NCBI GenBank assembly: GCA_016124845.1
Contig: WGMW01000004.1
Span: 68,242 to 105,249, forward strand
DNA length: 37,008 nt
Origin: Flavobacteriales bacterium
Lineage (GTDB): Bacteria > Bacteroidota > Bacteroidia > UBA10329
Direction: 5' to 3'
This document shows positions 21,658-36,907 of the stretch, one piece after another. Within the stretch, counting starts at the first letter, position 1. Every line of letters starts with the position of its first letter. The position numbers and the translations under genes were made by a program. Under the pieces are notes generated by a model that saw only the letters and a program-made list of their open reading frames with translations, was not told the DNA's origin and did no database searches.

Positions 21658-22128
21658 ATGAAAAGATCATTCCCCGTACTATTATCTGTTCTGGTGCTTG
21701 CTTCGGCCTGCGGCCACAGCGAAAAGGAAGCTGAAAACACTCCGAAAGAAGTGGAGACCGCTTTCAACCAGAAATTCCCTGATGCACAGAAAGTGAAATG
21801 GGAAAAAGAAAACGCCAACGAATGGGAAGCGGAATTTGAACTGAACGGAAAGGAATATTCGGCCAATTTTCTGAAGGATGGAACGTGGAAGGAAACCGAA
21901 TATGAGATCTCGCTTGCTGAGGTTCCAGAAGATGTAATGCATACGATAGACACCCAATTTCCAGACCATGAGGTGCAAGAAACCGAACTGTCTGAGCGCG
22001 CATTGGGAAACGTATATGCGTTTGAACTGGAAAATGCTGATGAGAAAGTGGAAGTGGAGATCACCGCAGACGGTTCTTCAATGAAAAAGACCTACAAGAG
22101 CGAGGAGAACGAAGACAGCGAGGAGTGA
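21658..22128 (+). CDS. PepSY-like lipoprotein (copy 1)
   Basis: The 156-residue precursor has a lipoprotein signal peptide (VLVLASAC, lipobox Cys18). A PepSY-like domain follows, containing VETAFNQKFPDAQKVKWEKE and WEAEFELNGKEYSANFLKDG, the latter resembling the beta-lactamase-inhibitor-like fold seen in this family. The tail is acidic. It is anchored in the outer or inner membrane facing the periplasm. It is clearly paralogous to the next gene. It sits 36 nt after the kinase gene, so it may be the two-component system's target or accessory sensor. Function unknown. Confidence 0.85.
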   Translation: MKRSFPVLLSVLVLASACGHSEKEAENTPKEVETAFNQKFPDAQKVKWEKENANEWEAEFELNGKEYSANFLKDGTWKETEYEISLAEVPEDVMHTIDTQFPDHEVQETELSERALGNVYAFELENADEKVEVEITADGSSMKKTYKSEENEDSEE

Positions 22129-22218
22129 AATATACTTCTCCAGATACTGGAAGATTCAGAATTTCTACCAATTCGTGCATGAGCTTTGACCATAGATTTA
22201 AACTAAAAGTCAGACACT

Positions 22219-22710
22219 ATGAAAAAGTCAATGCTCATTGCGCTCTCTGTTGCGCTTCTCGCAACCGCTGCCTGCGGACAGAAAAGTGAAACCGCCCCGA
22301 AAGCTGTGGAGGCAGCTTTCCACAAGAAATTCCCTGATGCCCAAAATGCCAAGTGGGACAAGGAAAATGACAAAGAATGGGAAGCCGAATTCAAAATGAA
22401 CGGCAAGGAATATTCTGCCAATTTCCTGAACGATGGCACTTGGCAGGAGACGGAATATGAGATCAAACGGTCGGAGATTCCTGCCAGTGTTCAAAAAACG
22501 TTGGACACCGAATTTGCCGGCTACGACATTGAAGAGGCCGAGATCTCTGAGAAGAACGAAGGCACCTTCTACGAATTCGAACTGGAGAAAGGAGAGTCAG
22601 ACATAGAAGTGGCCATGGATGCAAATGGCAAAGTGGTGAAAAAGGAAGTGAAGGAGGAAGATGAACATGGAGATTCGGAAGACGATGAACATGACGAGGA
22701 TGATGATTGA
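22219..22710 (+). CDS. PepSY-like lipoprotein (copy 2)
   Basis: The 163-residue precursor is a tandem paralogue of the previous lipoprotein: lipobox LLATAAC at Cys19, then VEAAFHKKFPDAQNAKWDKE and WEAEFKMNGKEYSANFLNDG. The C-terminal ~25 residues are extremely acidic with histidines (EDEHGDSEDDEHDEDDD), which could bind cations. The first copy lacks the histidines. A strong terminator follows. Function unknown; the acidic tail suggests divalent metal or calcium binding, which is inference. Confidence 0.85.
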   Translation: MKKSMLIALSVALLATAACGQKSETAPKAVEAAFHKKFPDAQNAKWDKENDKEWEAEFKMNGKEYSANFLNDGTWQETEYEIKRSEIPASVQKTLDTEFAGYDIEEAEISEKNEGTFYEFELEKGESDIEVAMDANGKVVKKEVKEEDEHGDSEDDEHDEDDD

Positions 22711-22724
22711 TCAGAATTAATAGG

Positions 22725-22758
22725 AAGGCCGCAAATTCAAATGCGGCCTTTCTTTTTT
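22725..22758 (+). terminator. Rho-independent terminator after the PepSY-like genes
   Basis: A perfect 9-bp stem AAGGCCGCA (22725-22733) / TGCGGCCTT (22742-22750) with an 8-nt loop is followed by TCTTTTTT. It ends the two-component/PepSY transcription unit. An ATG inside the stem (22741) is not a credible start for the next gene. Confidence 0.9.
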
Positions 22759-22779
22759 CCGTCTACAAACACAATTTAC

Positions 22780-23532
22780 ATGAAAACGAAAGACCCAGCA
22801 CTGAATAAGGTCGCTTCCATTACGCTTGCCTTCTGGATAATGAAGGTGTTGGCCACCACTTTGGGAGAAACCACAGGCGACCTCTTGGCCATGACGCTCA
22901 ACATCGGCTACAGCGTCAGCCTCATCATCACCTCCATCGCGTTTCTGATATTCCTGTTCCTTCAATTGCGAGCCGATAAATTCCATACGGTGCTTTATTG
23001 GTTGGTTATTGTGGGAACAACCACGGTAGGCACGGAGATATCCGATTTCATGGACCGCACGTTGGGTCTGGGCTACACGTGGGGCTCCATCATTCTGCTT
23101 TCATCTCTTTTGGCCGTGCTGTTCTTCTGGCACAAGCGGGAAGCTGGCATCCGCGTCTTCCCAGTTACCGACAGGCGCGTGGAGCTTTATTACTGGTTGG
23201 CCATTCTCATCTCCAACAGTTTGGGTACCGCCTTTGGCGATTATCTGAGTGATGACATTGGACTGAGCTACGTGAACGGTGCGCTGGTCACGGCAGGCAT
23301 CATCGGTGTGGTGGCCGTGTTGCATTATTTCACCAAATTGAATGAAGTGCTGCTGTTCTGGATCGCCTTCATCTTTACCCGTCCGTTCGGGGCCACCTTT
23401 GGCGACCTGCTGACCAAACCGCTCGATAGCGGAGGACTGGATCTTGGAACCATTCCTGCCACACTTGTTACCGCATTATTGTTATCGGCATTGGTGGCTT
23501 ATACGCACAGGCGCCATGTGGCTGGCACGTAG
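22780..23532 (+). CDS. DUF347-repeat membrane protein (COG4705-like)
   Basis: The 250-residue integral membrane protein has about eight hydrophobic helices. Four internal repeats have a Gly/Thr-Gly-Asp core: TTLGETTGDLLAMTLNIGY, TTVGTEISDFMDRTLGLGY, NSLGTAFGDYLSDDIGLSY and RPFGATFGDLLTKPLDSGG. This is the 'repeat of unknown function' pattern (DUF347). The conserved Glu/Asp residues in membrane repeats suggest a transporter or metal-linked role, but none is established to my knowledge. The start at 22780 (MKTKDPALNK) is preferred because the only upstream ATG lies inside the terminator. Transcription must begin downstream of, or read through, that terminator. Confidence 0.82.
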   Translation: MKTKDPALNKVASITLAFWIMKVLATTLGETTGDLLAMTLNIGYSVSLIITSIAFLIFLFLQLRADKFHTVLYWLVIVGTTTVGTEISDFMDRTLGLGYTWGSIILLSSLLAVLFFWHKREAGIRVFPVTDRRVELYYWLAILISNSLGTAFGDYLSDDIGLSYVNGALVTAGIIGVVAVLHYFTKLNEVLLFWIAFIFTRPFGATFGDLLTKPLDSGGLDLGTIPATLVTALLLSALVAYTHRRHVAGT

Positions 23533-24241: not shown

Positions 24242-27200
24242 ATGAACAGTATCATCCGTTTCTCTATTGAGAACAAACTTATTATCGGCCTTGCCATACT
24301 GGGTCTCATCGCTTGGGGCGGTTATTCGCTCTCGCAGCTTCCCATCGATGCGGTGCCCGACATTACCAACAATCAGGTGCAGGTGATCACCGTAACACCT
24401 TCGTTGGCCGCACAGGAGATCGAGCGGCTTATCACCTTTCCGGTAGAGCTTACCATGGCCACCATTCCAGGCATTGAAGAGGTGCGCTCCTTTTCCCGCT
24501 TCGGGTTATCGGTGGTCACCATCGTATTTGAAGAAGATGTGGACGTGTATTGGGCGCGGCAGCAGGTGAACGAACGGCTGACCGAGGCCAAAGCGCAGAT
24601 TCCGCAAGGAATTGGAAGTCCTGAGATGGCACCGCTTACCACAGGTTTGGGCGAAATATACCAGTATGTGGTGCACGCGGCAGAAGGCTACGAGGATCAG
24701 TATTCTGAGGTGGACCTTCGAACAATTCAGGATTGGATCATCAAACGGCAATTGCTGGGTACGCCCGGTGTGGCCGATGTGAGCAGTTTCGGAGGCGCGC
24801 TCAAGCAGTACGAGATCGCCATCGACCCAGAGAAGCTGCGCAGCATGAATGTGAGCATTTCCGAGGTCTTCTCGGCTTTGGAGAAGAACAACCAGAACAC
24901 AGGAGGCGCTTACATCGATAAGCAGCCGAACGCCTACTTTATTCGGAGTGAAGGCCTCGTTGGCAGCCTGGAAGACATTCGAAGCATTGTGATCAAGGGC
25001 AATCCTGCGGGCATTCCCATTCTGATCCGCGATGTGGCCGAGGTGAAGTTCGGAACCGCGCTGCGCTACGGTGCTTCTACCCGAAATGGCGAAGGCGAGG
25101 TGGTAAGTGCGTTGGTGATGATGTTGAAGGGCGAGAACTCGGCCAAGGTCATCGCCAATGTCAAAGAGCGCATGGAGCAGATCAAAAAAACGCTTCCCGA
25201 AGGTGTGGTCGTAGAGCCATTTCTTGACCGTACGCGCTTGGTGAACCGAGCCATCGGAACCGTGGAAAAGAACCTTGTGGAAGGAGCGCTCATCGTCATA
25301 TTCATTCTCATTCTACTTCTCGGAAACATCCGCGCAGGGCTGGTCGTGGCCTCGGTCATTCCGCTGGCCATGCTTTTTGCCTTGGGCATGATGAATCTCT
25401 TTGGTGTATCGGGCAACCTGATGAGCCTTGGGGCCATCGACTTTGGGCTGATCGTGGATGGCGCGGTGATCATTGTAGAGAGCATTGTTCACAGCATCAT
25501 GCACGGAAAGCTTTCGGGCAAGCTGACGCGGAAACAGATGGATGAACAGGTGTTCAACGCCACCACCAAGATCAGAAGTTCTGCCGCGTTCGGAGAGATC
25601 ATCATCCTGATCGTTTACCTGCCCATTCTGGCACTTGTGGGTGTGGAAGGCAAAATGTTCCGCCCCATGGCGCAGACCGTATCGTTCGCTATTCTCGGGG
25701 CCTTCATTCTGAGTTTGACCTACGTGCCAATGATGTCTGCGCTGTTCCTCAGCCGCAAAATGGAACAGAAAGAAAACATCTCCGACAGGATCATGCACTT
25801 CTTCCAGCGCATGTATTCGCCTGTCATAAACACGGGACTGAAACAGAAGAAAACCGTCATCGCAACGGCTGTGCTGCTGTTCGCGTTCAGCCTCTACACC
25901 TTCATGAACATGGGTGGAGAGTTTATTCCCACGTTGGATGAGGGCGATTTTGCCGTGGAAACACGTGTAATGACAGGCAGTTCGCTCACCGAAACCATTG
26001 ATGCGGCCACCAAGGCCGAAAAGCTCATTCTGGAGCGATTCCCCGAAGTGGAACAAGTGGTCGGTAAGATCGGTTCGGGTGAAATTCCTACCGACCCCAT
26101 GCCCATTGAAGCGTGCGATATGATGATCATTCTGAAAGACAAAGAAGAATGGGTGAGCGCGGACAGCCGTGAAGAACTGGCCAACAAGATGAGCGAGGCA
26201 CTAGCAGATATTCCTGGCGTCACATTCGGGTTCCTGCAACCTATTCAGATGCGGTTCAACGAACTGATGACAGGCGCACGTCAAGATGTGGTCATCAAGA
26301 TCTATGGCGAAGACCTGGACGTACTTTCAGACTACGCGAACCAAGTGGGAAAACTGGTCAAAACCGTGGATGGCGCTCAGGATCTGTACGTGGAACAGGT
26401 TACGGGATTGCCCCAGATCCAGATCGACTTCAACCGTGCGGAACTGGCCAAATATGGTCTGAACATTCAAGACGTGAATGCCGCCATTGAAACCGCATTT
26501 GCTGGCAAAAGCGCGGGCAAGGTCTACGAAGGTGAACGCAGATTCGACCTCGTTGTCCGACTGGATGACGAGCATCGTCACGACCTGGAAGATGTGAGAA
26601 ATCTCTTCATCAATACACCGGGCGGCCATCAGATCCCGTTGAACCAAGTGGCGGACATCAATTTCAAAGACGGTCCATCGCAGATACAACGCGATGACAC
26701 GAAACGAAGGATCATCATCGGTTTCAACGTGCGTAACCGCGATGTGGAAAGCATTGTGGCCGAGATCAAAGAGAAGGTCGATCGGAACATCGATTTCCCA
26801 ACGGGATATTACCCAACGTATGGTGGGCAGTTCGAAAACCTGGTGGAAGCGCGCCAACGGTTGTCCATTGCGGTACCTGTAGCGTTGCTACTGATCTTCG
26901 TCCTGCTTTTCTTCACGTTCCGTTCCATCAAACAGTCGCTGCTCATCTTCACAGCCATTCCGCTGTCGGCCATCGGAGGCATCTTTGCGCTGTATCTGCG
27001 CGATATGCCGTTCAGCATCTCGGCAGGTGTCGGATTCATTGCGCTGTTCGGTGTGGCAGTTCTCAACGGAATTGTCCTCATCGGTGAGTTCAACCGCTTG
27101 AAAGAACAAGGCGTGACCGACCTGCACGAACGCGTGCTGAAAGGAACCAGAGTGCGTCTGCGCCCCGTAATGATGACCGCGTTGGTGGCCTCGTTCGGCT

Positions 27201-28594
27201 TTCTGCCGATGGCACTATCAACCTCCTCAGGTGCGGAAGTGCAACGCCCGCTGGCAACCGTGGTTATCGGGGGGCTCATCTCTGCTACGCTACTGACGCT
27301 GCTGGTACTTCCTGTGCTTTACATCTATTTCGAAAAAGGATTCGGCCGTTCGGCCAAGATGGCTGCCAATGCGTTGATCATCGGTATGATGCTGCTTCCA
27401 TCGCTATCACAGGCACAGAATGGCCTAACGCTGGAAACGGCCATTGAACAGGCATTGCAGAACAATCCGACCATGCGCTCCGCAAAGCTGGATGTGGAAA
27501 GGAACATGCAGCTCAAGAAAACGGCCTCCGACATCGGTAAAACGCAGGTCAGTTGGCAGCACGGGCAATACAACAGCATCTACAGCAACGACAATTACAT
27601 CGGGGTTTCACAGAACTTCGCTTTCCCCACGGTGTATGCCAAGAATGCGGGGCTGGCCAATGCCAACATCGAAAGCAGCCGCTTGCAACAGCAAATGACG
27701 GAGAATGAACTGGCAACACGCGTAAAATCGGCTTGGTATCAGTTGATGAACGCACAGGCCAAACGGCAACTCTATCATCGGCTGGACAGCCTTTTCGCTG
27801 ATTTTGCGAATGCTGCGCAGATCCGTTACGCAACGGGTGAGAGCAGTCTGCTGGAAAAGACCACGGCCGAAACGCAACTGATGGAAGTACGCAACCAACT
27901 GCAAATGGCAGAAGCAGACGTGGAAATCGCCACTTCGCAACTTCAAACGCTACTCAATTCAGATCAACCGCTTGCTGACATCCAAACAAATCCAACCAAG
28001 CGAGAACTGGAAACCGCGTTGGACAGTTCGGGTGTCTCGAAAAACCCCGCTCTTGCCTTTTCGCAACAGCAGATAAAGGTTTGGGAGAAGACGCAATCTC
28101 TCGAAAAGGCCAAGTTGCTGCCCGACATCAGCATTGGATATTTCAACCAATCGCTGATCGGTGACCAGACCGTGAACGGGGTCGATCAGTTCTTCGGGCC
28201 AAGCAAGCGGTTTCAGGGATTTCAGGTCGGTGTGGCCATTCCGTTGTGGCTCCGACCGCACGTGGCGAAGGTGCAGGCGGCTGGCACCAAAGCCAAAATG
28301 GCCGAGGCGGACCATGAGAACTATCAGAACAACTTGGAAGGCGAGTACGCACAGGCCGTGCAGCAGTATCTGAAGTATAAAAGCAGCTTGGAGTATTACG
28401 AGAACACGGCTCTGAAACAATCGGACCTGATGCTGGAAAACGCGCAAAGTGCTTTCCGAAATGGGGCCATCGGCTACGTGGAATATGTGCAGGCCATCCA
28501 TCAATCCATGACCATTAAAAATGCGTGGCTCGATGCGCTGAACGGCTACAATCAGGCGGTCGTCCACATCGAATACCTCGCAGGAATCAAATAA
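24242..28594 (+). CDS. czcA: CzcA/CusA-family heavy-metal RND efflux pump fused to TolC-like outer-membrane factor
   Basis: The 1450-residue protein joins two parts. Residues 1-~1035 are a complete HME-type RND pump with 12 TM segments, N-terminal SIENKLIIGLAILGLIAWGG, a TM4 motif SLGAIDFGLIVDGAVIIVES with proton-relay acids (CzcA-like rather than CusA-like), and periplasmic porter domains. From M1040 a signal-peptide-like segment (NALIIGMMLLPSLSQAQN, predicted cut after A1058) leads into a TolC/OMF-type domain (~1060-1450) with long coiled-coil helices and YARQ-like repeats. The substrate is likely Co/Zn/Cd. RND-OMF fusions occur in Bacteroidota. It is followed 24 nt later by the adaptor gene, so pump, channel and adaptor are co-expressed. 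Confidence 0.92.
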   Translation: MNSIIRFSIENKLIIGLAILGLIAWGGYSLSQLPIDAVPDITNNQVQVITVTPSLAAQEIERLITFPVELTMATIPGIEEVRSFSRFGLSVVTIVFEEDVDVYWARQQVNERLTEAKAQIPQGIGSPEMAPLTTGLGEIYQYVVHAAEGYEDQYSEVDLRTIQDWIIKRQLLGTPGVADVSSFGGALKQYEIAIDPEKLRSMNVSISEVFSALEKNNQNTGGAYIDKQPNAYFIRSEGLVGSLEDIRSIVIKGNPAGIPILIRDVAEVKFGTALRYGASTRNGEGEVVSALVMMLKGENSAKVIANVKERMEQIKKTLPEGVVVEPFLDRTRLVNRAIGTVEKNLVEGALIVIFILILLLGNIRAGLVVASVIPLAMLFALGMMNLFGVSGNLMSLGAIDFGLIVDGAVIIVESIVHSIMHGKLSGKLTRKQMDEQVFNATTKIRSSAAFGEIIILIVYLPILALVGVEGKMFRPMAQTVSFAILGAFILSLTYVPMMSALFLSRKMEQKENISDRIMHFFQRMYSPVINTGLKQKKTVIATAVLLFAFSLYTFMNMGGEFIPTLDEGDFAVETRVMTGSSLTETIDAATKAEKLILERFPEVEQVVGKIGSGEIPTDPMPIEACDMMIILKDKEEWVSADSREELANKMSEALADIPGVTFGFLQPIQMRFNELMTGARQDVVIKIYGEDLDVLSDYANQVGKLVKTVDGAQDLYVEQVTGLPQIQIDFNRAELAKYGLNIQDVNAAIETAFAGKSAGKVYEGERRFDLVVRLDDEHRHDLEDVRNLFINTPGGHQIPLNQVADINFKDGPSQIQRDDTKRRIIIGFNVRNRDVESIVAEIKEKVDRNIDFPTGYYPTYGGQFENLVEARQRLSIAVPVALLLIFVLLFFTFRSIKQSLLIFTAIPLSAIGGIFALYLRDMPFSISAGVGFIALFGVAVLNGIVLIGEFNRLKEQGVTDLHERVLKGTRVRLRPVMMTALVASFGFLPMALSTSSGAEVQRPLATVVIGGLISATLLTLLVLPVLYIYFEKGFGRSAKMAANALIIGMMLLPSLSQAQNGLTLETAIEQALQNNPTMRSAKLDVERNMQLKKTASDIGKTQVSWQHGQYNSIYSNDNYIGVSQNFAFPTVYAKNAGLANANIESSRLQQQMTENELATRVKSAWYQLMNAQAKRQLYHRLDSLFADFANAAQIRYATGESSLLEKTTAETQLMEVRNQLQMAEADVEIATSQLQTLLNSDQPLADIQTNPTKRELETALDSSGVSKNPALAFSQQQIKVWEKTQSLEKAKLLPDISIGYFNQSLIGDQTVNGVDQFFGPSKRFQGFQVGVAIPLWLRPHVAKVQAAGTKAKMAEADHENYQNNLEGEYAQAVQQYLKYKSSLEYYENTALKQSDLMLENAQSAFRNGAIGYVEYVQAIHQSMTIKNAWLDALNGYNQAVVHIEYLAGIK

Positions 28595-28618
28595 ATCCAT
28601 TCAGAAGAAATTTCAATC

Positions 28619-29833
28619 ATGAACACGATCACATCAACATACAGAACACTCACCAGAGCGATTTTCCTCACGCTCATTTCAAGCGTTATCTTTTTATCAT
28701 CCTGCAAGCAGGAAGCAGAGAAACCTGCCGAAGAACCAACGGTGCAGGAAGACCATCCACAACACGAAAACCTTGTTCAATTCACCGAAGCGCAATACAA
28801 CATGGCGGGAATTGAAATTGGCAAGATCGAGCAGCGAATCCTCAGCAATGTGCTGAAGGTGAATGGCGTTCTGAGCGCTCCGCCTCAGAATCTCATCAGC
28901 GTTTCGGCCCCGATGGGCGGATTTGTGAAAAACACCGATCTGCTGCAAGGCATGCGCGTCAGCAAAGGACAGGTGTTGGCCGTTCTGGAGCATCCCGATT
29001 ACGTGCAGTTGCAGGAGGATTACCTGAACAAGAAAAGCAAGCTGCAATACTTGGAACAGGAATTCAAACGGCAGGAAAAGCTGCGCGAGGAGAATGTGAA
29101 CGCGGCCAAAGTTTACGAACAGACCAAGGCCGATTACCACAGCATGGCAGCACAGGTGAAGGGATTGAAGGAAAAGCTCGCCATCATTGGTATTGAAGCA
29201 GATGAACTGACGGAAGAGAATCTGTCACGAAAGATCAACATCTACTCGCCTATTTCGGGCTACGTTTCTGAAGTGAATGTGAACATCGGCAAATATGTGA
29301 ACCCATTGGATGTGATGTTCGAGATCGTGGATACCGAGCATCTTCATGCCGAACTTACGGTGTACGAGAAAGACGTGGTGAAACTGCGCATCGGTCAGAA
29401 CATCCGTTTCACGCTTCCGAACCAAAGCGAGAAAGAACGGTTGGCGTCTGTTTACCTGATTGGTAGAAAGATCGATGCGGACCGTTCTGTTCGTGTTCAT
29501 GCCCACTTGGAGAAGGAAGATACCGACCTACTGCCTGGCATGTACATCAATGCGCAAATTGAACTGAGCGACAATAAGGTGAATGCCGTACCAGATGAAG
29601 CCATCGTCATGTCGGGTGGCAAGAACTACGTTTACATTGTGGAAAATACGCAGAATGAGGGTGATTACACGTTTCACATGACAGAAGTTCAGAAAGGCGC
29701 TGTGGAAGATGGGTATACAGAGATCTCGTTCTTGGAAAACATGGACACGAAGGACGTGCAACTGGTAACCAAAGGCGCGTTCTCAGTTCTTGCCAAAATG
29801 AAGAATACCGAGGAGGAAGACGGTGGGCATTGA
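28619..29833 (+). CDS. czcB: Efflux RND periplasmic adaptor lipoprotein (CzcB/CusB-like)
   Basis: The 404-residue lipoprotein precursor (lipobox FLSSC, Cys near residue 29) is a membrane-fusion protein. It has a lipoyl-type half-motif (VSAPMGGFVKNTDLLQGMRVSKG), a coiled-coil hairpin (~120-185, YLNKKSKLQYLEQEFKRQEK), a second lipoyl half (IYSPISGYVSEVNVNIGKYV), and beta-barrel and membrane-proximal domains. It links the RND pump to the OMF across the periplasm. It lies 24 nt after the pump gene. The N-terminal mature region is acidic with a few His (EEPTVQEDHPQHENLVQF), a possible metal-capture segment. Confidence 0.92.
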   Translation: MNTITSTYRTLTRAIFLTLISSVIFLSSCKQEAEKPAEEPTVQEDHPQHENLVQFTEAQYNMAGIEIGKIEQRILSNVLKVNGVLSAPPQNLISVSAPMGGFVKNTDLLQGMRVSKGQVLAVLEHPDYVQLQEDYLNKKSKLQYLEQEFKRQEKLREENVNAAKVYEQTKADYHSMAAQVKGLKEKLAIIGIEADELTEENLSRKINIYSPISGYVSEVNVNIGKYVNPLDVMFEIVDTEHLHAELTVYEKDVVKLRIGQNIRFTLPNQSEKERLASVYLIGRKIDADRSVRVHAHLEKEDTDLLPGMYINAQIELSDNKVNAVPDEAIVMSGGKNYVYIVENTQNEGDYTFHMTEVQKGAVEDGYTEISFLENMDTKDVQLVTKGAFSVLAKMKNTEEEDGGH

Positions 29834-30925: not shown

Positions 30926-31594
30926 ATGAGAATTCTGGTTGTCGAAGATGAAGTAGGTATTTGCAATTTTCTGAAACAAGGTCTGGAAGAAGAAGGCTTT
31001 GATGTTGATGTGGCCACAGATGGTAAAGAAGGGTTGATATTGGCACTTTCTGGCGACTATGACCTGCTGCTGTTGGATTGGATGGTACCTAAAATGAGCG
31101 GTGTGGAGCTTTGCCGAAAATTCAGGGAAGAATTTAAAATCACGCCTGTCATTTTCCTCACAGCAAAGGACACGGTGGATGAGACCATCTCTGGACTTCA
31201 GGCAGGAGGCAACGATTACATCAAGAAACCTTTTCACTTTGCCGAACTTCTGGAACGCATTCGCGTGCAGCTACGTAGCGGTCAAGTAGAACACGAACAA
31301 CTCTACCTCGGCCCTATCAGGTTGGACACTTCAAGTCATCAGGCATTCAAGAACAATAAGGAGGTTCATCTTACGCAAAAAGAGTTCGGTCTGCTTGAGT
31401 TTCTATTGAGAAACAAGGGTGTGGTCTGCAATCGCACGCAGATTTTGGAAAACGTGTGGGACATTCATTTTGAGTACAATTCTGGGGTCATTGATGTGTA
31501 CATCAACGCACTTCGTAGGAAGTTGGAACTGGGAGAGGACGAAAATTACATTCAAACGGTGCGAGGAATCGGTTACATTGCCAAAGAACCATGA
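30926..31594 (+). CDS. OmpR-family response regulator (CusR-like)
   Basis: The 222-residue regulator has a receiver domain with E7-D8 and phosphoacceptor D51 (LLLLDWMVPKMSG), the Lys of KKPFHFAELL, and a C-terminal winged helix ending YIQTVRGIGYIAKEP. It overlaps the kinase gene by 4 nt (ATGA). Position next to the czc operon suggests metal-responsive control, and the 11-bp TTAA direct repeats before the efflux and T9SS genes are candidate binding sites. The link between regulator and sites is inference. Confidence 0.92.
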   Translation: MRILVVEDEVGICNFLKQGLEEEGFDVDVATDGKEGLILALSGDYDLLLLDWMVPKMSGVELCRKFREEFKITPVIFLTAKDTVDETISGLQAGGNDYIKKPFHFAELLERIRVQLRSGQVEHEQLYLGPIRLDTSSHQAFKNNKEVHLTQKEFGLLEFLLRNKGVVCNRTQILENVWDIHFEYNSGVIDVYINALRRKLELGEDENYIQTVRGIGYIAKEP

Positions 31595-32964
31595 GCCTGA
31601 GCTTCAAAGACAGGATCGCTTTCAATTACATGATCGCTACTGCGCTGGTCATTGCCGTGGTCTTTGCATCAGTATTTTTCATCGTTCGTGCCACAGTTTT
31701 AAACAACGTGGACAACGACCTGACCAAAGAGGCCAGCAGACATTTAATGGAGATACAGGTGGTAAAAGGCCGCGTGCAGTTTGCGGATGAGGAAGAATGG
31801 GAAGAACTGGAGCATCATGAGATATCGGTCAATCCCATGTTCATTCAGGTAATGGACACAAAAGGCAACATCGTTGACCATTCTCCCAACCTCAACGGAC
31901 AGAAACTCGACTTCGACCCCTCCATTCCAACCCGTAAACACTTTACAGTTGGCGTGAACGGTAGAAATCTGCGCGAGGTACGCTTGCCTATTATCAGAAA
32001 AGACAAAATATACGGTTACCTCATTGCCGCGGTCTCCCTCGGCCCTTCGTTGATGGTCATTGATAAACTGCGAAATGTGCTGCTCATCTCCTACCCCATC
32101 ATTCTGTTCGGTCTGTTCTTCGTTTCGCGCTATTTGGCAGGAAGAAGCATTGTTCCTGTGAGTACCATACGCGACACGACCGACCGCATTACCCGATATA
32201 ATCTTAACGAGCGGATTCCACTGCCCTCCAATCAGGATGAGCTTCATGGGCTTTCCACCTCCATTAACGAATTATTGCAGCGCATTGAGGACGCCATGCA
32301 ACGCGAGCGCCAGTTCACTTCTGATGCATCGCACGAACTGCGCACACCACTTTCTGTTTTGCGGGGAACATTGGAGGTGCTTATCCGAAAACCCCGAACG
32401 CATGAGGAATACGAAGCAAAGGTGAAGGAGAGTCTGGCGGAGATAGACCGACTGACCGAAACCATGGAACAACTGCTCTCCTTGGCCCGATCGGAAGACA
32501 GCTTGAAACTCAGCCAACAGATAAACCTTTCGGATGCCGTTCAGAGTATTCTGGTTCTTCAGGCCAAAGAGGCCAAGAAGAAAGGCATCCAGACCCAATT
32601 CACCAACGAACTGAAGCAAGAGGTTAAGGTACCTCAGGAAAACATTCAGCTTATCGTTGGTAATCTGGTCGGCAATGCCATCAAGTACTCAGAGCCAAAT
32701 ACGACTGTCAGTATTTCGGTAAGAACAGAAAATGGAAGACCCATTTTTGAGGTGAAAGATGAAGGAATCGGCATCAAGGAGGAGGATCTGAAAAACATCT
32801 TCAACCCGTTCTTCCGATCGGGAACGATGGAACACCGCCACATAGCTGGCAACGGTCTTGGGTTGGCCATTGCGCAGCGCGCTGCAAATGCGATGCACGC
32901 AGATATTACGGTTTCGAGTAAACTTGGTAAAGGCTCAACCTTTACTTTGATCTTAAACTCGTGA
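31591..32964 (+). CDS. Membrane sensor histidine kinase (CusS-like)
   Basis: The 457-residue kinase has TM1 (~11-33), a ~120-residue periplasmic domain with several His and acidic residues (EEEWEELEHHEISVNP), TM2 (~163-183), a HAMP domain, and HisKA with H248 in TSDASHELRTPLSVL. Its HATPase domain has the N-box GNLVGNAIKYS, G1 DEGIGI and G2 GNGLGLAIAQ. The layout matches CusS-type heavy-metal sensors. The acidic/His cluster in the sensor region could bind a cation. It partners with the overlapping response regulator gene. Confidence 0.92.
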   Translation: MSLSFKDRIAFNYMIATALVIAVVFASVFFIVRATVLNNVDNDLTKEASRHLMEIQVVKGRVQFADEEEWEELEHHEISVNPMFIQVMDTKGNIVDHSPNLNGQKLDFDPSIPTRKHFTVGVNGRNLREVRLPIIRKDKIYGYLIAAVSLGPSLMVIDKLRNVLLISYPIILFGLFFVSRYLAGRSIVPVSTIRDTTDRITRYNLNERIPLPSNQDELHGLSTSINELLQRIEDAMQRERQFTSDASHELRTPLSVLRGTLEVLIRKPRTHEEYEAKVKESLAEIDRLTETMEQLLSLARSEDSLKLSQQINLSDAVQSILVLQAKEAKKKGIQTQFTNELKQEVKVPQENIQLIVGNLVGNAIKYSEPNTTVSISVRTENGRPIFEVKDEGIGIKEEDLKNIFNPFFRSGTMEHRHIAGNGLGLAIAQRAANAMHADITVSSKLGKGSTFTLILNS

Positions 32965-33096: not shown

Positions 33097-35541
33097 ATGA
33101 GTAGACTTTTCGCTCAGCTTTTCCTGTTGTTCATCCCCGTGTTCGCGCTTGCGCAGACGCAAACCATCCGTGGCGTTGTTACCGATCAGGAAAGTAAAAT
33201 GCCCATCATTGGGGCGGCTGTGGTGGTGCTCGGCTCAGACCCTATCATTGGAACCACCACCGACATTGACGGGAAGTTCCATCTGCCCAAGATGAAGGTT
33301 GGGCGTATCGATCTGCAGATCTCCTATCTCGGTTACGAGCCACGCACACTTTCGGGCGTGCAGCTGGTAAGCGGGAAAGAACTTGTGCTGAACGTTGAAA
33401 TGGTGGAGCAGGTGCTGAAGAAAGATGAAGTGGTGGTGAAAGCCTCGCGCAGCAAAGAGGAGGTGATCAACACAATGGCTACGGTTTCGGCACGGGTATT
33501 CTCCACCGAAGAGGCATCCCGCTATGCGGGAACACGGAATGACGTTTCGCGGATGGCCACCAACTTTGCGGGTGTGCGCGGTGCGAATGATGCTACCAAC
33601 GACATTGTGATCCGCGGAAACTCGCCCACGGGATTGCTTTGGCGATTGGAAGACATCGACATCCCCAACCCGAACCATTTCGGAAGCCTTGGTTCCACGG
33701 GCGGCCCCGTGAGCATGCTGAACAGCAACGTATTGGCAAATTCCGACTTCCTCACAGGCGCATTCCCATCTGAATATGGAAACGGTATTTCGGGCGTGTT
33801 CGACCTGAAAATGCGTTCGGGAAACAACGAGAAGCACGAGTTTCTGGGGCAGATCGGTTTCAATGGCGTGGAACTCGGTGCAGAGGGTCCGTTCTCAAGA
33901 AAAAGTGGCGCATCGTACCTCATCAATTTCCGTTACTCCACCTTGGCATTGTTCAAATTGGGAGGCGTGAATTTTGGTACGGGAGATGCGGTGCCGAAAT
34001 ACTCGGATGTCAGTTTCAAGGTGCGCATTCCTACCAAACATGCGGGTATTTTCGAGATGTTCGGGATGGGCGGCATCAGCAGCATCGACTTCCTGGCCAG
34101 CCAATCGAAGGACAATTCCACCAACTTCTACTCGCAAGGCGGGTTGGATATTTACAACCGCACCAAAACGGGCGTTGTCGGAGTTTCCAACACGTTTCTT
34201 TTCAAGAATGCGAGCTATCTGAAGACCACTTTTGCGGCCAGCACCTTGCTGAAGCAGGATGTGGTCGATAGTGTGGATGTGACCAAGAACCCGTTCGATT
34301 GGTACAAGCAGAACTTCCAGGACCATCGGTTCCAAGCATCCATTTTCTACAAGATAAAATTCAATGCAAAACATAACCTGAAGGTTGGCACGCGCTACAC
34401 GGTTTTCTATTCCATTTTGCAGGACAGTGCCTTTATTCCAAGCTGGAACAGTTACCAAACGCTGACAAATTTTGATGGCGTGACCGCACTCATTCAACCT
34501 TACGCACAATGGCAATGGCGCTGGAGCAATTCGTGGACAATGAACACAGGACTGCACGGCCAAGTGCTGACGCTGAACGGTGCCTACACCGTGGAACCTC
34601 GCTGGGGCTTACAATGGAAGGTGAATCCACGCCACAAACTTTCATTGGCGTACGGGCTTCACAGCCAGATGGTAACGCTGGACAAGTATTTCCTGGTGAT
34701 GGAAGATTCTACAGGAAAGAAGGAAATGCCTAACAAGAACCTCGATTTCGTGAAGAGCCATCACGTGGTTTTGGGTTACGATTGGAGCCTTCCGTGGGAT
34801 ATGCGCATCAAAGTGGAGGCGTATTACCAATACATCTATGATGCGGTTATCGGTGCCGACACCAATTCGTATTCCTCCCTGAACGTTGGCAGTTTTACGC
34901 AAAGCGGACCTGACAACCTTGTGAATGGTGGAACGGGAACCAACTACGGAGTGGAGATCACGTTCGAGAAATTCCTGACAAAAGGTTATTACTGGCTGCT
35001 CACGGCATCGTTCTACGACTCGAAATACGTGGCCAGCGATGGTATTGTGCGCAACACGGTTTTCAACGGAAATTATGTGGTGAACGTGCTTGGCGGTTAC
35101 GAGCTGCGACTGAACCGCAAAAACCCCCGCGAGCGATTGCCAAAACCAACTTTCAGCGAACGCAAACTGAAGCGATGGACCAAGAAGCAGGATCTGCGAA
35201 AGGCCACCAAACATTCGTTGAAATTCGATGTGAAGTTCACCATTGCGGGAGGTTCGCGTTACACGCCTATCGACCTTCAGGCATCTGCCTTGGCCAAGAA
35301 GGCTGTATATGTGGATGAGGCAGCCTATTCGCAGCAGTTCCAGCCGTACTACCGATTGGACCTTGGACTGACCTACCGCATGAGCCGCCCGAAGCTTACG
35401 CAGGAGTTTTCGGCATCTTGCCAAAATGTGACGGACAAGCAGAATCCGTTGTACAATCAGTACAACCCCGACCTGAACAAATTGGTGAATGTGAACCAGT
35501 TGGGCATCTACCCGCTTTTGCAGTACAAGATCCTTTTCTGA
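33097..35541 (+). CDS. TonB-dependent receptor with carboxypeptidase-regulatory-like domain
   Basis: The 814-residue precursor has a signal peptide (cut near FALAQTQ, ~20), a carboxypeptidase-regulatory-like beta-sandwich (~22-108, IRGVVTDQESKMPIIGAAVV), a plug domain (~115-230, NDIVIRGNSPTGLLWRLEDI), and an outer-membrane beta-barrel ending in the terminal aromatic residue of YKILF. It is somewhat short for the family. No SusD-like gene follows, so a polysaccharide utilisation role is unlikely. Metal or siderophore uptake is possible, given the neighbouring metal-efflux locus, but the substrate cannot be read from sequence. The inverted repeat at 33033-33052 may govern it. Confidence 0.9.
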   Translation: MSRLFAQLFLLFIPVFALAQTQTIRGVVTDQESKMPIIGAAVVVLGSDPIIGTTTDIDGKFHLPKMKVGRIDLQISYLGYEPRTLSGVQLVSGKELVLNVEMVEQVLKKDEVVVKASRSKEEVINTMATVSARVFSTEEASRYAGTRNDVSRMATNFAGVRGANDATNDIVIRGNSPTGLLWRLEDIDIPNPNHFGSLGSTGGPVSMLNSNVLANSDFLTGAFPSEYGNGISGVFDLKMRSGNNEKHEFLGQIGFNGVELGAEGPFSRKSGASYLINFRYSTLALFKLGGVNFGTGDAVPKYSDVSFKVRIPTKHAGIFEMFGMGGISSIDFLASQSKDNSTNFYSQGGLDIYNRTKTGVVGVSNTFLFKNASYLKTTFAASTLLKQDVVDSVDVTKNPFDWYKQNFQDHRFQASIFYKIKFNAKHNLKVGTRYTVFYSILQDSAFIPSWNSYQTLTNFDGVTALIQPYAQWQWRWSNSWTMNTGLHGQVLTLNGAYTVEPRWGLQWKVNPRHKLSLAYGLHSQMVTLDKYFLVMEDSTGKKEMPNKNLDFVKSHHVVLGYDWSLPWDMRIKVEAYYQYIYDAVIGADTNSYSSLNVGSFTQSGPDNLVNGGTGTNYGVEITFEKFLTKGYYWLLTASFYDSKYVASDGIVRNTVFNGNYVVNVLGGYELRLNRKNPRERLPKPTFSERKLKRWTKKQDLRKATKHSLKFDVKFTIAGGSRYTPIDLQASALAKKAVYVDEAAYSQQFQPYYRLDLGLTYRMSRPKLTQEFSASCQNVTDKQNPLYNQYNPDLNKLVNVNQLGIYPLLQYKILF

Positions 35542-35688: not shown

Positions 35689-36852
35689 ATGGAGCAGGTG
35701 ATCGACTTCTTTCGAAGATTGTTGGAATCGGATCAATTTATGCCACGTTGGGTCTGTGGCAAATGGACATCCTTCCACGGCTGGATATATATCGTATCAG
35801 ACTTCACGATCTTTCTGGCCTACATGGCCATTCCCATTGCCATGATCTACTTTGTGCGGAAACGCTGGGGGGATCTTCCTTTCCGTGAAGTTTTCTGGCT
35901 TTTCATTGCATTCATCTCGCTTTGCGGAACTACGCATTTGATAGACGCCATCATCTTCTGGCTTCCTATCTATCGAGTGAACGCCATTGTGTTGGCTGCA
36001 ACTGCTATCGTTTCTATTGTTACGGTTGTGGCCATGGTGAAAGCGATCCCTAAAGCCCTCTCTTACAAAAGCCCTGTTGAACTTCAGGCTGCGGTTGACT
36101 CGAAAACAGCCGAATTGGAGCAGCGCGTTTCCGAACTGAAACTTCTTTCTTCCAGAATTTCACGTAAGAAGCAACAAGTGGAAAATTTCGCTTACATCAC
36201 CTCACACAATCTGCGCGCGCCCTCTGCCAATCTGGTGGCGCTGGTGCGCGAACTGGATGAGGCAGATGCTGAACGCAGGGAACAGATCATGCCGTTGCTG
36301 GTAAAAAGCGGCAATCAACTGATGCGGACGCTGGACGATATTTCGCACGTGCTTACGCAAAGCAATCCGCTGCACGAGGCACGCATCCTCAAATTCGTTG
36401 ATCTGGTGGATGAGATCAAACTGGAACTCAGCTCAGAGATCAACGAGTCGGGAGCGGTCATTCTCGAAAACTTCGGTGAATGCACGGAGATCCTCTATGC
36501 GCCCGATCACCTCAAAAGTGTGATGCTGAACCTGATATCCAACGCCATCCGCTACCGCCACCCCGACCGCAAACCTGTGATAGAACTGAAAACATGGCGT
36601 TACGAAGGCCGCGTTTTCTTAGAGTGCAAGGACAACGGACAGGGCATCGACCTTCAGAAACACGGAGAAAGCCTGTTCAGACTTTACAAGACCTTCCATC
36701 GGAACCCCGAAGCCCACGGAGTAGGGCTTTTTCTGGTGCGGCATCAACTGGAATCTTTGGACGGTTCCATTGACGTTGGAAGCGTGGAGGGAAAAGGAAC
36801 CACGTTCGTGGTAAAATTCGGAGACCCCGAACATATTGTAGATGAGCATTGA
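35689..36852 (+). CDS. Histidine kinase with ethylene-receptor (ETR1)-like membrane domain
   Basis: The 387-residue protein has three N-terminal membrane helices (~33-56, ~66-92, ~97-119), then a coiled coil (~133-165), a HisKA H-box with H173 (FAYITSHNLRAPSANL), and an HATPase domain (N-box NLISNAIRYRH, DNGQGID, GVGLFLVRHQ). The membrane part matches plant ETR1 at each residue I recall as important for copper-dependent ethylene binding: D38, Y45, I48, P49, I76, C79, H83 correspond to D25, Y32, I35, P36, I62, C65, H69, with the same D-Y and C-H spacing. It therefore probably binds Cu(I), and perhaps ethylene. There is no GAF domain and no adjacent response regulator. It appears monocistronic. 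Confidence 0.85.
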   Translation: MEQVIDFFRRLLESDQFMPRWVCGKWTSFHGWIYIVSDFTIFLAYMAIPIAMIYFVRKRWGDLPFREVFWLFIAFISLCGTTHLIDAIIFWLPIYRVNAIVLAATAIVSIVTVVAMVKAIPKALSYKSPVELQAAVDSKTAELEQRVSELKLLSSRISRKKQQVENFAYITSHNLRAPSANLVALVRELDEADAERREQIMPLLVKSGNQLMRTLDDISHVLTQSNPLHEARILKFVDLVDEIKLELSSEINESGAVILENFGECTEILYAPDHLKSVMLNLISNAIRYRHPDRKPVIELKTWRYEGRVFLECKDNGQGIDLQKHGESLFRLYKTFHRNPEAHGVGLFLVRHQLESLDGSIDVGSVEGKGTTFVVKFGDPEHIVDEH

Positions 36853-36861
36853 GAGAATAAT

Positions 36862-36907
36862 TAATCATAATGATTATCCGCAATCCGACCCCGTAAATTG
36901 GTTACGG
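36862..36907. repeat. Two perfect short inverted repeats between kinase and IS-like gene
   Basis: TAATCA/TGATTA (36862-36867, 36871-36876, 3-nt spacer) and CCGTAA/TTACGG (36891-36896, 36902-36907, 5-nt spacer) lie in the 89-bp gap. They could mark a transcription end, or the left boundary of an insertion sequence whose transposase begins at 36942. Confidence 0.4.

Follow-up and report, generated by a model that had tools for sequence, protein, structure and literature searches.

A GAF-less ETR1_N histidine kinase of a Flavobacteriales bacterium with the ethylene/copper-binding residues of plant ETR1 and leucine at the position of the helix-3 lysine

Results and Discussion

The kinase gene and its domains

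The window, as we call the whole stretch of 37,008 nucleotides from a Flavobacteriales bacterium analysed here, closes with an intact gene for a sensor histidine kinase and the truncated end of an insertion sequence (IS), and contains further upstream a TonB-receptor-like gene and a metal efflux locus (Table 1). The membrane part of the 387-aa kinase matches the Pfam family ETR1_N (PF25487) with an E-value of 1.9e-32 and a score of 111.9 bits, far over the curated cut-off of 27, and alignment reveals a complete set of two-component kinase motifs (H173, N281/N285, D315/G317/G319 and G344/G346). Pfam matches neither a GAF nor a PAS domain in the protein; ETR1_N is joined directly to the histidine kinase, and the domain order bears out the earlier note made on this DNA, which had described such a direct link. 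The GAF domain that lies between membrane part and kinase in plant-type ethylene receptors is thus not matched, and neither is the HAMP domain of heavy-metal sensor kinases of the CusS/CzcS type.

An AlphaFold2 model of residues 1-141, computed from 14 sequences, is too weak for geometry (mean pLDDT 75.5, pTM 0.56); its helices span residues 28-58, 66-89 and 95-124, of which the first contains D38, the second C79 and H83, and the third L102. A fold search with this model against solved structures returned no meaningful match (best E 4.2) and is uninformative, because the matches of a PDB sequence search with the kinase are confined to its kinase parts.

Table 1. Features of the kinase locus (positions in the window unless a contig is named)
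Feature	Position	Strand	Remarks
TonB-receptor-like gene with CarboxypepD_reg domain	33097..35541	+	upstream neighbour also in G004
ETR1_N-type sensor histidine kinase, 387 aa	35689..36852	+	ATG at 35689, stop 36850-36852; Pfam
Predicted extracytoplasmic N-terminal signature FMPRWVCGKWTSFHGW, residues 17-32	35737..35784	+	alignments; mostly ahead of the Pfam domain
PF25487 ETR1_N domain, residues 30-125, three predicted membrane helices	35776..36063	+	Pfam, AlphaFold2 model
Leu102 codon, position of ETR1 K91 / AzoEtr1 K98	35992..35994	+	alignment; register checked with AzoEtr1 D35/C75/H79/K98
Phospho-acceptor His173 (SHNLRAP)	36205..36207	+	invariant across 21 aligned kinases
HATPase_c domain, residues 272-377; N, G1 and G2 boxes intact	36502..36819	+	Pfam, kinase alignment
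8-bp target-site duplication TTAATCAT	36861..36868	.	perfect second copy beyond the IS, near start of contig C44
IS left end, terminal repeat AATGATTATCCGCAA, cut by contig end	36869..37008	+	transposase-like ORF from ~36942
Matching response regulator, outside the window	G000:C44:161-550		78% identical to G004 regulator; 160 bases from contig end

The copper/ethylene pocket

Our family alignment comprises 90 bacterial ETR1_N domains (41 from Bacteroidota, 31 cyanobacterial, 18 from Pseudomonadota) and ETR1, whose N-terminal sequence was checked against the published residue numbers. Residues D38, Y45, I48, P49, I76, C79 and H83 of the window protein pair with D25, Y32, I35, P36, I62, C65 and H69 of ETR1, so that all seven ethylene-binding residues stand where the earlier note had placed them. 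Its statement that the spacing is likewise that of ETR1 holds within the TM1 set and within the TM2 set, but not across the loop between them, which has one extra residue (the numbering runs 13 ahead of ETR1 at the four residues of TM1 and 14 ahead at the three of TM2). The match is far beyond chance: a scan of the window in six frames finds the seven-residue pattern once, and none of 200,000 shuffled versions of the protein contains it. Most of the 90 family members, across three phyla, retain the seven residues. A loss of C79 or H83 in close homologues, which had been named as evidence that would speak against the pocket, was not seen: C65 is kept in 40 and H69 in all of the 41 Bacteroidota rows. 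AzoEtr1 from the plasmid of Azospirillum brasilense Sp7, for which 14C-ethylene binding has been measured, served as the positive control; it aligns with D35, C75, H79 and K98 at the published places (PMC11819568). Judged from these correspondences, the membrane part is a bona fide ETR1_N domain that matches the plant copper/ethylene pocket.

Ahead of helix 1 the protein carries the signature RWxCGxWxxFHGW, which is shared by the 22 rows of a Bacteroidota clade (see below), and in which C23, W26, H30 and W32 are invariant among 14 Bacteroidota relatives. C23 aligns with a cysteine kept in most bacterial ETR1_N members; together with H30 it gives the clade a C-x6-H arrangement (codons at 35755-35757 and 35776-35778), where other bacterial members have H-x2-C. 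The C23/H30 pair is a possible candidate for a disulfide or a copper-handling site.

A leucine at the position of the output lysine

The claim of the earlier note that all key residues of ETR1 are present goes too far, because the position of K91 is occupied by Leu102 and is leucine in both congener proteins as well. No basic residue occurs in the sequence within four positions of Leu102. According to PMC11819568, K91 takes part in output and is the residue with which D25 forms a polar pair; PMC13012798 likewise describes a salt bridge between the aspartate and a conserved lysine, and reports a binding weakened roughly 100-fold by exchange of the aspartate for asparagine. With lysine in 53 and arginine in 20 of the 91 aligned rows (ETR1 included), the lysine is a common rather than a strictly defining feature of ETR1_N, and one that the window protein lacks.

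Each of the three ETR1_N proteins in the genus has leucine at this position, and so do four relatives with N or S at the place of D25. In members of the Bacteroidota clade the bridge may have been replaced, with Leu for Lys and in some also Asn or Ser for Asp; some relatives in the clade are without D25, so that the complete ethylene site is not a constraint on the clade as a whole. This variation, which looks as if ligand or affinity had drifted, is what favours the view that the ETR1_N fold, and perhaps its copper, has been kept for another ligand, be it oxygen, carbon monoxide, another olefin or the redox state of the membrane. We regard such a change of ligand as unlikely for the window protein, which retains all seven ethylene-binding residues.

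In the raw table the states at D25 and K91 go together strongly (Fisher p 8e-7). A tree-aware count of their covariation yielded 5 supported independent pairs, of which about 2 agree in direction and almost none run opposite, and is not significant; coevolution of the two positions is rejected as a claim, since the tree supports too small a number of independent changes. Two further Bacteroidota ETR1_N proteins (L029 and L031, from genomes G237 and G425), encoded by 1567-aa open frames, have Asn at the D25 and Asp at the K91 position.

An insertion sequence between kinase and response regulator

The last 140 bases of the window represent the left end of an IS, and the same end is found at five other contig ends. 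It is a multi-copy element with 15-bp terminal repeats, which breaks the assembly at the ends of contigs C47, C29, C6, C26, C65 and C44; from the 8-bp duplication at this site and the tail of its transposase it is perhaps IS1595-like. Contig C44 starts with the other IS end, namely the inverted terminal repeat TTGCGGATAATCATT followed by TTAATCAT.

In the congener G004, a kinase 75% identical to that of the window is followed, 27 nt downstream, by a response regulator with a REC domain only (130 aa). The matching regulator of the window genome lies on C44, where seven genes from the regulator onward are collinear with G004, and the gap between kinase stop and regulator start is 32 nt once the IS and one duplicate are removed. 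From the terminal repeats, the 8-bp duplication and the collinearity with G004, rather than from a read, we infer that the window contig (C4) and C44 are joined through the IS. The kinase is therefore not "lone", as it had been called: it has a cognate single-domain regulator in its operon, intact in G004 and split off by the IS in the window genome. A REC-only regulator also adjoins both ETR1_N kinases of genome G053 and those of several other Bacteroidota; the Mucilaginibacter ETR1_N kinases have no adjoining response regulator.

The position of the IS between kinase and regulator may alter expression of the regulator, and it raises the question of whether the receptor is decaying or uncoupled. 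Leu102 would fit such a decay, and so would the patchy occurrence of the gene in the genus: apart from the window genome, ETR1_N is present in 2 of 8 congeners (G004 and G008) and was not found in G005, G006 and G007, which are 94-95% complete. Against it, the reading frame is unbroken and no kinase motif is damaged, and the leucine predates the IS, because G004 carries the same residue in an intact operon and has thus kept it in an intact gene. We consider decay or uncoupling quite improbable.

Distribution and relationships of the family

Among the genomes sampled, ETR1_N is present in 21 of 395 from Bacteroidota, 20 of 59 from cyanobacteria and 15 of 200 from Pseudomonadota. Short forms are frequent: 11 of the 21 ETR1_N-bearing Bacteroidota genomes have open frames of 388-423 aa, and cyanobacteria and Pseudomonadota have comparable ones of 389 and 401 aa, respectively. 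Once membrane part and kinase are accounted for, frames of 388-423 aa are too short to hold a GAF domain as well; the architecture is therefore an ordinary one and not the less familiar form that the GAF-less bacteroidete kinase had been thought to be.

A phylogeny of the membrane domain, which had been proposed as a check, places the window protein in the Bacteroidota clade of 22 rows with high support (100/99), in a tree built on 130 columns in which many forks are open. The placement of ETR1 in this tree is uninformative because the plant branch is long. A literature search limited to open-licence papers found no description of the Bacteroidota ETR1_N members. By sequence, the window protein is a well-conserved member of a known bacterial family of ETR1-like kinases.

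Neighbouring genes and the metal locus

The TonB-receptor-like gene is present in 9 of 9 genomes of the genus and is for this reason regarded as a neighbour of the kinase rather than a shown partner. The metal locus (24242-29833) comprises a CusA/CzcA-family pump (TIGR00914, 1235 bits against a cut-off of 701) fused to an outer-membrane component, and an adaptor; an OmpR-type regulator and a HAMP kinase (31591-32964) follow beside the efflux genes. Two PepSY-like proteins and a DUF347 membrane protein (21658-22710 and 22741-23532) precede the pump-fusion ORF of 1450 aa (24242-28594).

About 6 kb lie between the end of the efflux locus and the kinase downstream of it, whose copper ligands are conserved; this would suit a copper sensor in which Cu(I) occupancy of C79 and H83 is itself the signal that controls metal handling. 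The earlier note had likewise seen in the nearby metal locus a fit to copper sensing. However, the locus comes with a two-component pair of its own, and a comparison with G004 over the 9.1 kb preceding the kinase there detected the TonB-type gene as the sole match to the window and no gene of the efflux locus; moreover the protein retains Y45, I48, P49 and I76, which ethylene binding requires in addition to the copper ligands. We therefore give little credence to copper as the signal. A link between kinase and metal locus is rejected, given the lack of conserved linkage and the regulators of the locus itself. The window genome also has a Cu P-type ATPase, which adds nothing specific because such ATPases occur in all of the 14 control genomes (14/14).

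Exchange of sensor modules within the genus

In congener G005, which is without ETR1_N, the transmitter of the window protein recurs (43% identity across 256 aa) in fusion with PAS domains (L157:2931-4995) and adjoins a related regulator (52%). In G008 an ETR1_N part 60% identical to that of the window protein is combined with PAS and with a HisKA kinase that differs from the window transmitter (L048:9827-11344). Sensor and transmitter have therefore recombined within the genus, and the regulator travels with the transmitter. Within this one genus a similar kinase-regulator module thus bears either ETR1_N or soluble PAS domains, and ETR1_N is joined to two transmitters.

A proposed mechanism

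Sensing of ethylene or an olefin is the most likely function suggested by the residues of the protein. The reading that we favour, and hold to be slightly better than an even bet, is that of a Cu(I)-dependent receptor kinase for ethylene or a small olefin, belonging to the Bacteroidota clade and with altered coupling of sensor to kinase. The three N-terminal membrane helices would hold Cu(I) through C79 and H83 of helix 2, near D38 of helix 1; their ligand would be ethylene or a small olefin resembling it, as the identity of these residues with those of receptors of measured binding suggests. Binding would shift the helices and thereby change autophosphorylation of H173, from which the phosphate would pass to the cognate 130-aa REC-only regulator, directly downstream in the ancestral operon and paired with the kinase by gene order. 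With Leu102 at the position of K91, the D25-K91 bridge proposed for ETR1 output cannot form, and the sensor would have to be coupled to the kinase by other contacts. The loss of K91 thus leaves the described output path missing and counts against the favoured reading, as does the absence of D25 from some relatives in the clade. More tentatively, and with somewhat less confidence than an even chance would carry, we suggest that in the Bacteroidota clade the copper/ethylene pocket persists whereas the D25-K91 bridge has been replaced, giving a rewired output or a tuned affinity, and that the sensor module has been swapped between kinases within one genus.

Comparison with known receptors

AzoEtr1 (PMC11819568) resembles the window protein in its ETR1_N domain with the same seven residues, in its bacterial kinase and, according to our reading of the plasmid, in a response-regulator ORF 16 bp downstream. 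It differs in K98, where the window protein has Leu102, in its longer open frame of 529 aa and in its N-terminal signature (PHGxC instead of RWxCGxWxxFHGW). In SynEtr1 (Slr1212) of Synechocystis, an ETR1-type membrane domain likewise feeds a histidine kinase and phosphorelay (PMC11819568), but this protein has a phytochrome-like photosensory part of its own (PMC10452086), which the window protein lacks. With plant ETR1 the window protein shares the seven binding residues and three membrane helices; in contrast to it, the window protein has no GAF domain, no attached receiver and no lysine at the K91 position, where it has Leu, and a single cysteine ahead of helix 1 instead of C4 and C6.

Implications

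How binding of ethylene is converted into kinase output is still unsettled, and the aspartate-lysine bridge in the membrane domain is one current proposal. What stands out at this locus is that the output lysine has been lost in nature while the pocket persists, that sensor modules are exchanged, and that an IS divides the operon. Natural receptors of this kind, small, GAF-less and devoid of the lysine but not of the binding residues, offer ready tests of the bridge, in proteins simpler than the plant receptors. If the Bacteroidota members bind ethylene, ethylene sensing would extend into the Bacteroidota.
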